Shown: piece by piece, positions 10,894-53,687 of the stretch
Layout: each line of letters starts with the position of its first letter
How positions within the stretch are numbered: position 1 is the stretch's first letter
NCBI GenBank assembly: GCA_020725805.1
Contig: DYEF01000070.1
Location: forward strand, 1 to 64,000
DNA from: Bdellovibrio sp.
GTDB taxonomy: Bacteria > Myxococcota > SpSt-1050
DNA length: 64,000 bases
Direction: 5' to 3'
Position numbers and translations under genes: made by a program
Notes under the pieces: generated by a model
Database searches by the model: none
What the model was told of the DNA's origin: nothing
What the model saw: only the letters and a program-made list of their open reading frames with translations

Positions 10894-11862
10894 CTAATAA
10901 GGTATACACTGACCTATACAACATTTCTCACAATCATAGGCACTTTTGAATTCCCCAGAACACCCACTATCACCAGAACAGCAGCTACCACCCAAATATC
11001 CGCATGAAGGTATACAATCTTCACACCTGAAATGAGGAAAGTTACACTCACACTTGTTATCTCTGCAAATTCTGCACTCCCAGACACCTTCCCCACAATA
11101 ATTACCTTCACGGCTATAGTACTTACATTCGCCTTTGTCGCAATAATACCCCTCACATTTTATATCATAACCCGTATTGTCACAATCATTATCTCGGATA
11201 CACTTCACACAATTGCCAAGACCATCACATATTCCTTTGTCAGCATTGCTCAATATACACTTTTCATATTTGTCTTTATAAGGGTGAATACATATACCAG
11301 ATTTGCAGATATCATTTGTGCATTCAAGTCCGTCATCTCTGCAGATGTCACCCTCTTTCTGACTCCAGTTCTTTTTGTCTATCAAACTATTACATTCAAG
11401 ACATTCTTCCGACGGATTGGCCTCGTGGTCTTTATAACATTTACCCTCTATTAAGCAAAAGGCATCTCTAATTTCTGAACTACATCTGTTATTGATGCAT
11501 TCCCATACAAGACACTCGAATCCAGTTTCACAATCAGAGAATGTATTACACTCCCTTATCAGGCTATCTCCTGTATCCTGTATGTTTTCTAAAAAATTTT
11601 CAATTTCATTATCATAGCTCTCAGCGTCAATAGCATTGTTTTCATCCTCTGACAAAGATTGTTTATCGAAGAGAATAAAGTCAGCATATCCATTCGGGCT
11701 ATCCGATACATCAATATTTTCATACAATCCCACACATTCGTTATTTTTACAGACAAGTGCCTTTGGACAATCCATATCATTTTTGCAATACAGCGACGAG
11801 CTATGACTACAGGATAATAGTATAGTAACAACTGATATAGAGAAAAAGACATTTACTTTCAT
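10894..11862 (-). CDS. Cys-rich lipoprotein, probably leaderless transcript
   Basis: The 322-residue protein starts MKVNVFFSISVV and ends its signal with TILLSC (Cys18). The body carries more than 40 Cys in short motifs of CxxxxDCxxG, CEGYYCDKGEC and CCSGDSGC type, suggesting several small disulfide-bonded modules on the cell surface, of the sort seen in myxobacterial Cys-rich repeats. No catalytic motif is visible. There is no Shine-Dalgarno before the ATG at 11862; instead a strong promoter puts the transcript start at or one base before it. An earlier in-frame Met at 11922 lies upstream of the promoter and is rejected. The lectin-hydrolase gene follows and is probably co-transcribed. Confidence 0.8.
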   Translation of the reverse strand: MKVNVFFSISVVTILLSCSHSSSLYCKNDMDCPKALVCKNNECVGLYENIDVSDSPNGYADFILFDKQSLSEDENNAIDAESYDNEIENFLENIQDTGDSLIRECNTFSDCETGFECLVWECINNRCSSEIRDAFCLIEGKCYKDHEANPSEECLECNSLIDKKNWSQKEGDICRDDGLECTNDICKSGICIHPYKDKYEKCILSNADKGICDGLGNCVKCIRDNDCDNTGYDIKCEGYYCDKGECKYYSREGNYCGEGVWECRICRDNKCECNFPHFRCEDCIPSCGYLGGSCCSGDSGCSGEFKSAYDCEKCCIGQCIPY

Positions 11863-11869
11863 AGGGCAT

Positions 11870-11898
11870 ATTATAAGAGATAGGGTTTTGTATGTCAA
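11870..11898 (-). promoter_or_regulatory. Consensus sigma70 promoter giving a leaderless mRNA
   Basis: On the minus strand TTGACA (11893-11898) and TATAAT (11870-11875) are perfect consensus hexamers with a 17-base spacer. Seven bases separate the -10 box from the ATG at 11862, so the expected start of transcription is base 11863 or 11862. This leaves no room for a ribosome site. Confidence 0.8.
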
Positions 11899-43035: not shown

Positions 43036-43111
43036 GGTGAGTGTAGCTCAATTTGGTTAGAGCACCGGACTGTGGCTCCGGTTGTTGGGGGTTCAAGTCC
43101 CCTCACTCACC
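43036..43111 (+). tRNA. tRNA-His (anticodon GTG)
   Basis: A 76-base cloverleaf five bases after tRNA-Arg. GTGAGTG pairs with CACTCAC, and an encoded extra G at -1 (43036) faces C73, the identity mark of tRNA-His. The anticodon stem CCGGA/TCCGG encloses CTGTGGC (anticodon GTG). CCA is not encoded. Its last five bases overlap the stop end of the HIT gene on the other strand. Confidence 0.96.
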
Positions 43112-43538
43112 CATCCTTTATCTCTTTAAGCACTTCCCTGAATACCCTCTTCTCCCCGAGTTTTGACAGATATCTTGCACCTTCCTGAAATCCCTCAAGC
43201 GCATTGAAATACCTGTCGAGCGGGTCTTTTGAAAAGGTTGGTATCAGAAAAATATGAGTATGAGGAATTCTCCTGCCCCGGGCATACTGCGTAATAAAGT
43301 CTGCCTTATATTTCTTCATCAGCCTGAGACTTACTCTTCTTGCGAGATTATACAGGTCCGAGGTCTCTTCTTCACTCATCTCATACCAGAACTTTATGTG
43401 TCGTTTGGGAATCACAAGGCAGTGTCCCCTCTGCAGCGGATTGATATCCAGAATACATACAGAGAGTCTGCTCTCCTCTACAAGATAACAGGGCGATTTC
43501 CCGCTGACAATATCACAGAATACACATCTTTTCTTCAT
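43107..43538 (-). CDS. HIT-family nucleotide hydrolase
   Basis: HIT proteins cleave or transfer nucleotidyl groups from substrates such as AMP-lysine or Ap4A. The 143-residue protein has an N-terminal CVFCDIVSGKSPCYLV with the family Cys pair, HCLVIPKRHIK, and the histidine triad region GRRIPHTHIFLIP. In this last motif the usual third His is Phe (H-T-H-I-F), while the middle, nucleophilic His remains, so it may be a variant. GAGGAG precedes the ATG. The stop codon lies inside the antisense of tRNA-His. Confidence 0.9.
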   Translation of the reverse strand: MKKRCVFCDIVSGKSPCYLVEESRLSVCILDINPLQRGHCLVIPKRHIKFWYEMSEEETSDLYNLARRVSLRLMKKYKADFITQYARGRRIPHTHIFLIPTFSKDPLDRYFNALEGFQEGARYLSKLGEKRVFREVLKEIKDG

Positions 43539-43625
43539 TTTTGCAATCTCCTCTCAATAACGGATAGGAATCTGATAGCAAATCAGCAACTCAAAGAAAA
43601 GAAAAATATGGAAAATTTTTTCTTC

Positions 43626-43653
43626 TTGCAAGGGTCATATTTTCTGGTATCAT
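43626..43653 (+). promoter_or_regulatory. Promoter giving a leaderless mRNA for the AttH-like gene
   Basis: TTGCAA (43626-43631), 16 bases, TATCAT (43648-43653). Six bases separate the -10 box from the ATG at 43660, so transcription should begin on its A. No Shine-Dalgarno is present. Confidence 0.65.
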
Positions 43654-43659
43654 ATTTTT

Positions 43660-44652
43660 ATGAACATTCTGAGAACGTCTGCAAGGTCTCGCTGGAATAA
43701 GGAGCCGGGCTTCTTCGAGGTCTGGTATCTGACATTCAATGATTCAAAAACCGGCGAAGGTTACTGGATAAGATTTACTCTCGTGGTTCCGAAAAACGTA
43801 ATGGAATCACCTTTTCTCAATCTCTGGTTTACTGCCTTCAAGAGAGAAAAAATAATATCGGTTATTTCAGAGAACTATAAAATTTCCGAGTGCGGTTTTT
43901 CGGACGAAAAGATTCAGATAAAGAATTCATACCTGTCATCAGATATCACAGAGGGCGAAGTATCCGACAAAGAACACAGGATAAAATGGCAGCTGAATAT
44001 CGGTGAAGGACCGGAATTACTTCATCTGCCGTCACATATTTATCAGATACCTCTTCTTCATTCCTATCTCGCCTCCCCGAACATCTCCTTCGAGATAAAA
44101 GGGAAGGTCGAAATCGACGGCAATGAGACCGAAATCAGCGGGAAAGGGACGCAGAGCCACATCTGGGGCAGAGAGATGCCGGAGAGATGGATATGGGCAC
44201 ATACCGACAACTTCGAAAATCACAAAGGTTTTTTTGAACTGATATCGGTAGAAAGCCGTTTCGGACCTTTGGGACAGGTCTCATCATCAAGGATACTTCT
44301 GAGATTTGAAGAAGAGGAGTTCTCGTTTCTGACACTCAACAATATTAAATTCAAAGAATGCCCCGTATTTCCGGAATATATATTCTTTGCTACGGGGAAA
44401 AAGTATAAAATAGAAGGCAAGATATATTCGGAGAAGAAAAATTTCATTCAGTATCACTACCCTATGCCCTCAAACAAGGAAGTATTCTGTACCAACACGG
44501 AATGCGGTTCAGTTAACATAGTTGTCTATAAACGTGATTCCCTGTTCAAGCCATTTGTATATTACACGGTTCTGAAGAATACGGGTCTTACACACTTTGA
44601 ATTCGGCAGTTCAAGAAAAATCGAAGAGATTCCGGTCTCGAATCCGCAATAA
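43660..44652 (+). CDS. AttH/CrtC-like lipocalin-fold protein
   Basis: The 330-residue protein has no signal peptide. WNKEPGFFEVWYLTFNDSKTGEGYWIRFTL near the start and GTQSHIWGREMPERWIWAHTDNFE in the middle are the pattern of the AttH-like/hydroxyneurosporene-synthase fold, a tandem lipocalin that binds hydrophobic molecules. Carotenoid hydratases and tocopherol cyclase relatives share this fold, but no carotenoid genes lie nearby, so substrate and reaction remain open. It is probably translated from a leaderless mRNA. It converges on the envelope operon at 44732. Confidence 0.72.
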   Translation: MNILRTSARSRWNKEPGFFEVWYLTFNDSKTGEGYWIRFTLVVPKNVMESPFLNLWFTAFKREKIISVISENYKISECGFSDEKIQIKNSYLSSDITEGEVSDKEHRIKWQLNIGEGPELLHLPSHIYQIPLLHSYLASPNISFEIKGKVEIDGNETEISGKGTQSHIWGREMPERWIWAHTDNFENHKGFFELISVESRFGPLGQVSSSRILLRFEEEEFSFLTLNNIKFKECPVFPEYIFFATGKKYKIEGKIYSEKKNFIQYHYPMPSNKEVFCTNTECGSVNIVVYKRDSLFKPFVYYTVLKNTGLTHFEFGSSRKIEEIPVSNPQ

Positions 44653-50598: not shown

Positions 50599-50611
50599 AA
50601 AGCCGGAAGTA

Positions 50612-50640
50612 ATAATACATCAATCAGATAAGGTTTTCAA
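50612..50640 (-). promoter_or_regulatory. Promoter of the four-gene envelope operon
   Basis: TTGAAA (50635-50640, minus strand), 17 bases, TATTAT (50612-50617). The predicted start is about seven bases before the ATG. Confidence 0.55.
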
Positions 50641-51670: not shown

Positions 51671-51782
51671 TGATTCCTCCTGTCCGCTGTATTTTAAGTA
51701 CTATTCTACACATAATAAGTCAAATATTTTATTGTTATGCCACAACTTAACCGACACCAAGGATATTTGGCGTATTAAAGAT

Positions 51783-51811
51783 TTGACTTTAAATAGTTAA
51801 ACGAATAAGGT
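51783..51811 (+). promoter_or_regulatory. Promoter of the kinase - sigma54 activator operon
   Basis: TTGACT (51783-51788), 17 bases, TAAGGT (51806-51811). Two TGTCA direct repeats (51813-51817 and 51822-51826) lie just downstream, nine bases apart, and could be a protein site. No strong ribosome site precedes the ATG at 51840. Confidence 0.45.
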
Positions 51812-51839
51812 ATGTCACAATTGTCATAGTGGTTGGATT

Positions 51840-53687
51840 ATGAATATTGACAGCAGATATCAGATTCTGGAAAAGGCCGGCTCCGGCGGTATGGCCGCGG
51901 TATACAGGGCACGGGATACCGTATTAAACAGGGATGTTGCGGTAAAAGTCCTCCATCCGCATCTGATTGAAAAAGAGGAGGTCAAAAAGAGATTTCTGAG
52001 GGAGGCACAGGCAATCGCCCGGCTCAGACACAAAAATATCATTGAAATATATGATTACAAATCAGACTCCTCAGACTGCTATATAATCAGTGAATTTATT
52101 AAAGGTAAAAATCTCGGCACATTCCTGTCCGAATACGACATATCTTCACCGTTTATAGCCGCTATGATTATATCTGTCCTTGCAGATGCAATAGGACACG
52201 CACATAAAAACAATGTCATACACAGAGACCTGAAACCTGAAAATATCCTTATATCCGAAAACTATCAGTTAAAGATTGCCGATTTCGGAATTGCACATAT
52301 AGCGGACGCAGAAAGTCTTACAATAACAGGCTCTATTTCGGGCTCCCCTGCACATATGTCTCCCGAGCAAATCGACGGAAAGGATGTGGATTTAAGAACC
52401 GATATATTCTCCCTCGGCACAATACTATATCTCATTTCCTGCGGAGAACTCCCTTTTAAGGGGAACTCTCCGGCCTCTATCTTCAAATCTATACTTATGG
52501 GGGAATATAAGGAGCCGAAGGAACTCAATCCTTTAATTGACAGCAGATTCTCTGCAATAATACAGAAATGCCTGAAGAAGAATCTGGCCGAACGTTACAG
52601 CAGCACAGAAGAGCTCAAAGCAGAGCTCAATGATTATCTGAAAGGATACGGAATTACCAATACAGAGCAGAATCTTCAGAAGTTTTTTCAGGAACCGATC
52701 GAATATCTCGATGAACTCAACAAAAAGATTGCCGGACACCTCAAGGAATATCTCTACAAGAACATACATAACACAGAAAGCAGAATTCAGATTCAGGATT
52801 ACCTGAATATCCTTCTGTACCTTGCACCCGATGACGATGATGCAAAGGCCATATTTGAGAGATTCTCTTCCCTTGAAGATTCAGAGAGAAGGTCAAAAAG
52901 GATAAAATCAGTCCTTCTGGCAAGCGCAATATTCCTTCTTATGGCTTTTATTGTCTTCAACGCAGTCTCCTATTATAAAAGGATACCTGACTCAAACACA
53001 AAGCCGGCGGAGAATACGGTTGCAGTTACACCTGATGACAAATATCCCGATGTCCATACAACCCCATCGGAGGAAGACAAGATAATATCAACCGGAAATG
53101 AATCAGAAAGAACAGAAGAAAAGTCAGAAGAGGAGATGGTACTGAAAAAACCAAAGCGGAAGATTGCCCGTCCACAGTCAGCAAGGGAGAAAAGCCAGAG
53201 TAGTGATGAAAAGGAAGAAAGTACAATTCCCAGATTCGGGGAACTCAACCTGTTTGTAAAACCTTACGGCGATATATATATCAATAATCAACTTGCAGGC
53301 AGGGAAAAGGCAACCCTCAATATCAAACTTAAGAGCGGAAAGCACTTTATCAGGGTCAAAAACCCCTTCTTCTTCGATATAGAAAAGGAAATCAGCATAG
53401 AGCCGGATTCGAAGACCGACCTCAGACTGGTATTTGACAATATTAAACCTGCAAAATTATTTATTAACACTTCCCCAGAATGTGATATATATATTGACGG
53501 CAACCTTCTGGGACGGAGTGATATGTATACTAAGAGTGGTATTACTATTCCTATAAATACCAAGGACGGAAGACGTGAAATACTCCTTAAGGCGTCAAAG
53601 GCAGGATACAAAGACTATATCAGGAAGATAGAGCTGACCGCAGGTGAAGCCAGAACTTTAAAAATCAACCTTACCAAAGAAAAATGA
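51840..53687 (+). CDS. Membrane Ser/Thr protein kinase with PEGA domain
   Basis: A 615-residue Hanks-type kinase. The kinase domain (about 6-265) has GSGGMAAVYRARD, the VAVKVL Lys, HRDLKPENILIS, ADFGIAHI and GSPAHMSPEQ. A helical stretch leads to a membrane helix near 358-380, then a charged linker and a C-terminal part (about 460-615) with PEGA-type units (GDIYINNQLAGREKATLNIKL and CDIYIDGNLLGRS). The kinase is cytoplasmic, the sensor part external. It opens a five-gene operon; its stop overlaps the next ATG (ATGA). Confidence 0.93.
   Translation: MNIDSRYQILEKAGSGGMAAVYRARDTVLNRDVAVKVLHPHLIEKEEVKKRFLREAQAIARLRHKNIIEIYDYKSDSSDCYIISEFIKGKNLGTFLSEYDISSPFIAAMIISVLADAIGHAHKNNVIHRDLKPENILISENYQLKIADFGIAHIADAESLTITGSISGSPAHMSPEQIDGKDVDLRTDIFSLGTILYLISCGELPFKGNSPASIFKSILMGEYKEPKELNPLIDSRFSAIIQKCLKKNLAERYSSTEELKAELNDYLKGYGITNTEQNLQKFFQEPIEYLDELNKKIAGHLKEYLYKNIHNTESRIQIQDYLNILLYLAPDDDDAKAIFERFSSLEDSERRSKRIKSVLLASAIFLLMAFIVFNAVSYYKRIPDSNTKPAENTVAVTPDDKYPDVHTTPSEEDKIISTGNESERTEEKSEEEMVLKKPKRKIARPQSAREKSQSSDEKEESTIPRFGELNLFVKPYGDIYINNQLAGREKATLNIKLKSGKHFIRVKNPFFFDIEKEISIEPDSKTDLRLVFDNIKPAKLFINTSPECDIYIDGNLLGRSDMYTKSGITIPINTKDGRREILLKASKAGYKDYIRKIELTAGEARTLKINLTKEK

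Follow-up and report, generated by a model that had tools for sequence, protein, structure and literature searches.

The gene that begins at ATG 43660 of the window (the whole 64,000-nucleotide stretch analysed here, part of contig C66 of the 3.29 Mb, 43% GC genome G000) is very probably transcribed as a leaderless message from a promoter lying directly upstream, with its start on the A of the ATG. The elements of this site are collected in Table 1; the earlier note had described TTGCAA-16-TATCAT ending at this ATG with no Shine-Dalgarno (SD) sequence, and we confirmed its exact coordinates and found none of the tested SD cores in the 20 bases 5′ of the ATG. The three bases 5′ of TATCAT, which that note did not mention, are TGG and thus create an extended −10. 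By an established rule, transcription begins some 7 bases past the −10, preferably on a purine that follows a pyrimidine; on this basis the start is assigned to A43660, the only purine at positions 2–8 after the −10. In the mechanism proposed here, the promoter is of the housekeeping (sigma-70-like) type, and its −10, ending 6 bases 5′ of the ATG, would direct polymerase to that A; a ribosome would load directly on the 5′-terminal AUG of the resulting leaderless mRNA without an SD (the 70S/5′-AUG route). For such messages, PMC9031893 describes direct loading of 70S ribosomes on AUGs located at the 5′ end or close to it. A minor upstream start may in addition yield a leadered transcript of the gene.

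Table 1. Features of the 43660 site and of two further promoters in the window (L002 is the sister-species ortholog locus)
Feature	Position	Strand	Remark
−35 element TTGCAA	43626..43631	+	conserved as CTTGCAAGGG, at equal offset, in L002
Spacer, 16 nt	43632–43647	+	
Extended −10, TGG-TATCAT	43645..43653 (hexamer 43648–43653)	+	hexamer TATCAT at equal offset in L002
ATTTTT, six bases between −10 and ATG	43654..43659	+	T immediately 5′ of the predicted A+1
Start codon ATG, predicted transcription start on A	43660..43662	+	start placed by distance from the −10
Gene for 330-aa tocopherol-cyclase-like (CrtC/AttH-type) protein	43660..44652	+	
Divergent HIT-domain gene with ordinary SD (AGGAG)	43107..43538	−	
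TTGACA-17-TATAAT-7-ATG 11862 (perfect)	11860..11898	−	stronger than the 43660 site
TTGAAA-17-TATTAT, 13 bases before ATG 50598	50599..50640	−	predicted leader of about 6–8 bases

The placement of ATG 43660 as the sole viable start of its gene is secure: it is the only ATG, GTG or TTG between the in-frame stop at 43576 and codon 42, and the conserved portion of the protein starts at residue 12 (W12, E20). In the sister species (the same-genus genome G001, taken as the deltaproteobacterial MAG SKW273), the ATG of the ortholog is likewise the first possible start, because an in-frame TGA at −15 shuts the frame. The only Pfam match of the 43660 protein is Tocopherol cyclase (PF14249; E 1.2e-5, 25.0 bits versus a cut-off of 26.6), a family that matches nine of 14 relatives with a best E of 1.4e-9, and the protein has no match to the curated AttH/CrtC family model; with PF14249 alone found, and that below its cut-off, the name “AttH-like” used previously is a loose one. 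A profile search of solved structures with this protein gave no match, and its predicted structure (from two sequences) was set aside at a pLDDT of 41. The hexamer TTGCAA is its own reverse complement, lies on the minus strand 17 bases before TATTTT, and could double as a −35 for the divergent HIT gene.

The SKW273 ortholog is 73% identical to the 43660 protein and is preceded by CTTGCAAGGG-N13-TATCAT-N6-ATG (full stretch CTTGCAAGGGATTGAATTTTTGATATCATAGTATC-ATG), which is TTGCAA-16-TATCAT-6-ATG as in the window, and the bases before its TATCAT are TGA versus TGG in the window. The two upstream sequences are identical at 28 of 40 positions from −40 to −1 and at about 27% farther upstream; counted per ten bases going upstream from the ATG, the identities are 7, 7, 6, 8, then 3, 2, 2, 6 and 2, so that similarity is at chance level past −40. 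Twenty-two of the 29 promoter bases are shared at the same offset, a number reached by none of 100,000 shuffles and equalled by no other 29-mer pair within 200 bases. The upstream neighbour is not shared, the HIT ortholog of SKW273 being on a different contig from L002, and G002, a relative at the level of the order, carries the gene in second place of an operon and without such a promoter. Leaderless expression, as the earlier note had proposed for this gene, is the best reading and is supported by a promoter-to-ATG geometry that is kept across species in an otherwise diverging intergenic region.

Three other explanations were weighed. It is unlikely that the promoter is real but that transcription starts a few bases to either side of A43660, giving a leader of 1–5 bases or mixed starts, in which case translation would remain effectively leaderless-like. 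Start choice after a −10 does spread across several positions, and in orthologs of other candidates (below) the distance to the ATG shifts by 1–3 bases (6 to 7, 9 to 7 and 7 to 10), but here the two species agree on a distance of 6 bases, and the one purine among these bases in the window, A43654, is too near the −10. We consider it very unlikely that an unseen promoter, or one for another sigma factor, lies farther upstream, so that the message has an SD-less, A/U-rich leader and the conserved block acts as an operator or some other element. In its favour, the intergenic DNA is rich in A and T, and an SD core is lacking in 123 of the 342 first genes of the G000 sample, many of them with no promoter near the ATG; against it, the conservation ends at −40, which matches the extent of a promoter ending at −7, and the 121-bp gap to the HIT gene contains no better promoter. 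Chance resemblance in AT-rich DNA, with which a promoter-like site count equal to the shuffled expectation (4 found in the surrounding 2.6 kb versus 4.5 in shuffles) would agree, has a negligible probability and is largely refuted by the conservation at the same offset in SKW273. Viewed singly, the 43660 promoter is nonetheless weak evidence and not beyond local chance; it matches the consensus at 9 of 12 bases (4 of 6 in the −35), and equally strong sites occur at 23 of 12,670 positions (0.18%) upstream of first genes. The site rises above chance because of its conservation in the sister species together with a genome-wide excess of promoters at the same spacing.

This excess was measured in 1.13 Mb of G000 (858 genes) and 1.21 Mb of G001, about one third of each genome, sampled as stretches. 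Our gene-caller script picks starts by coding bias alone, so upstream signals had no influence on the called starts. The class counted was SD-less first genes of transcription units with a TANNNT and an acceptable −35, ending 5–9 bases before the ATG; expected counts were taken from positions 10–44, and 500 column shuffles served as a second control. G000 has 17 such promoters versus 4.9 expected (shuffle mean 5.1) and G001 has 18 versus 6.0 (shuffle mean 7.4), and in each genome 0 of 500 shuffles reach the observed number; the count of −10 boxes before SD-less ATGs that the earlier note had suggested thus gives an excess in both. SD-bearing first genes have 7 such promoters in G000 and 2 in G001, and the same script applied to 300 kb of E. 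coli, a small control, gave 1 versus 1.7 and no peak. The base at −1 is a pyrimidine in 30 of the 34 leaderless candidates from the two genomes, and among the remaining SD-less first genes the share is 64% (Fisher p 0.005); such a bias would be expected of transcripts that begin on the A of the ATG. A strict pattern, TTGACN-N16–18-TANNNT-N5–8-TATG, was also run over the whole genomes with the reversed pattern as control, and it finds 26 sites versus 7 reversed in G000 and 18 versus 9 in G001; 20 of the 26 G000 sites open a coding-biased ORF of 60 codons or more, versus 28% of random TATGs (p 2.6e-7).

The excess in G000 corresponds to about 12 of 342 transcription-unit-first genes, or about 3.5%, and leaderless expression would thus be a minor mode beside dominant SD initiation; a Deinococcus- or Actinobacteria-like frequency (tens of percent leaderless) was not found by this excess. 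The suggestion that this organism regularly expresses genes with no leader or an ultra-short one therefore holds as to its recurrence, which the excess, the strict pattern and the orthologs favour, and has to be reduced to a minority mode that leaves out one of the five genes on which it was built. The spacing of 6–13 bases given for all five is found at 43660 (6), 11862 (7), 25061 (8; a weak case with GATAAT as its −10) and 50598 (13), but 61278 has only TTGAAA-17-TAGTAA, with no hexamer carrying A2 and T6 and so no acceptable −10. The ortholog of 11862 (L175) has TTGACA-18-TACAAT-10-ATG. That of 50598 (in L068) has TTGAAA-17-TATGAT, 15 bases before the ATG, and by its sequence 50598 is a conserved ultra-short-leader gene and not a leaderless one.

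At least nine further genes of the same genome share the leaderless layout with the 43660 gene. A same-distance test over 213 ortholog pairs retained the 43660 gene alone, because most other members shift by 1–3 bases, and a wider distance window was applied to later ortholog comparisons. All ten strong G000 candidates with a recognisable ortholog in the sampled G001 sequence keep the −35/−10 pair 5–10 bases before the ATG: the 43660 gene, 11862 of the window, L039 2999 (hybrid histidine kinase), L080 12336 (penicillin-binding protein), L077 2270, L186 (TetR), L188 (methylthiotransferase-like), L191, L196 (TPR) and L197 (type IV leader peptidase). Two weaker candidates, L084 8589 and L047 12396, have the layout without conservation in G001. 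A coherent regulon is unsupported, as the leaderless genes are functionally mixed; a TetR regulator, a hybrid histidine kinase and a penicillin-binding protein are among them, and so are radical-SAM methylthiotransferase-like, TPR and lytic transglycosylase proteins. Upstream of L084 8589 (a 612-aa gene), a block TTTTTACGCARTGTGTCATAAAA..ACTTGCAAGC is conserved between the two species, with no sigma-70 −10 conserved alongside it; the block is possibly another sigma factor's site or an operator.

The promoters of leaderless genes in Mycobacterium tuberculosis end on the start codon, as at 43660. The part of the M. tuberculosis leaderless transcriptome report considered here (PMC3898074) also describes an absence of SD sequences, as here, but leaderless genes are far commoner there, and ours are predicted from sequence. 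In Deinococcus-Thermus, as far as the cited portion of Zhong et al. 2025 (PMC12340547) goes, a −10 directly before the ORF gives leaderless expression; the layout is alike, but the evidence there is experimental, and the mode is common and important phylum-wide, whereas here it is a minority beside SD initiation. Zheng et al. 2011 (PMC3160421) described leaderless genes with a TANNNT about 12 bases before the start, and among 33 genomes of deltaproteobacteria detected them in 8 (mean 15.8%); the 43660 site is alike, with the first T of its hexamer 12 bases before the ATG, and the present set differs in that a clear −35 is usual, the share is smaller (by the excess, about 3.5% of first genes) and the genus is uncultured. 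Leaderless genes with this signal are thus already known in many bacteria, including deltaproteobacteria, and what is new is the documentation in this genus of a conserved set of predicted leaderless genes with a measured low frequency.

In this uncultured deltaproteobacterial genus, leaderless genes would constitute a stable minority mode whose spacing is kept in orthologs of two species. That they form a selected class, in which the same genes are leaderless across species despite diverging sequence, is a doubtful further step; if it is true, the reason may be that such messages can still be translated when initiation factors or 30S subunits run short. The conserved genes offer test cases for the retention of leaderless mRNAs in SD-dominated genomes. 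Annotation of gene starts would also benefit, since SD-based callers can misplace leaderless starts; the caller using coding bias alone missed 11862.

Several other upstream elements are conserved between the two species. The 60 bases before the Ser/Thr protein kinase gene at 51840 (51780–51839) are identical to the sister species at 49 of 60 positions and contain RAGGTATGTCANAATTGTCATAG, which is present in one copy per genome and is unlike a sigma-70 promoter; this stretch is a candidate for either conserved regulatory or mis-annotated coding DNA. At L198/L065 (G000:C93:13579 and G001:C75:13717) there is a conserved TTGACA...TGATACATTTGACGC..ATG in which a TGCGTCA/TGACGC inverted repeat spans the promoter and the ATG opens a frame of only 10 or 21 codons. 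At L194/L202 (G000:C67:21740 and G001:C87:33393), a near-identical 41-base promoter-like block is followed by an ATG with a 4- or 12-codon frame, and this block could be the promoter of a small RNA or a short peptide.
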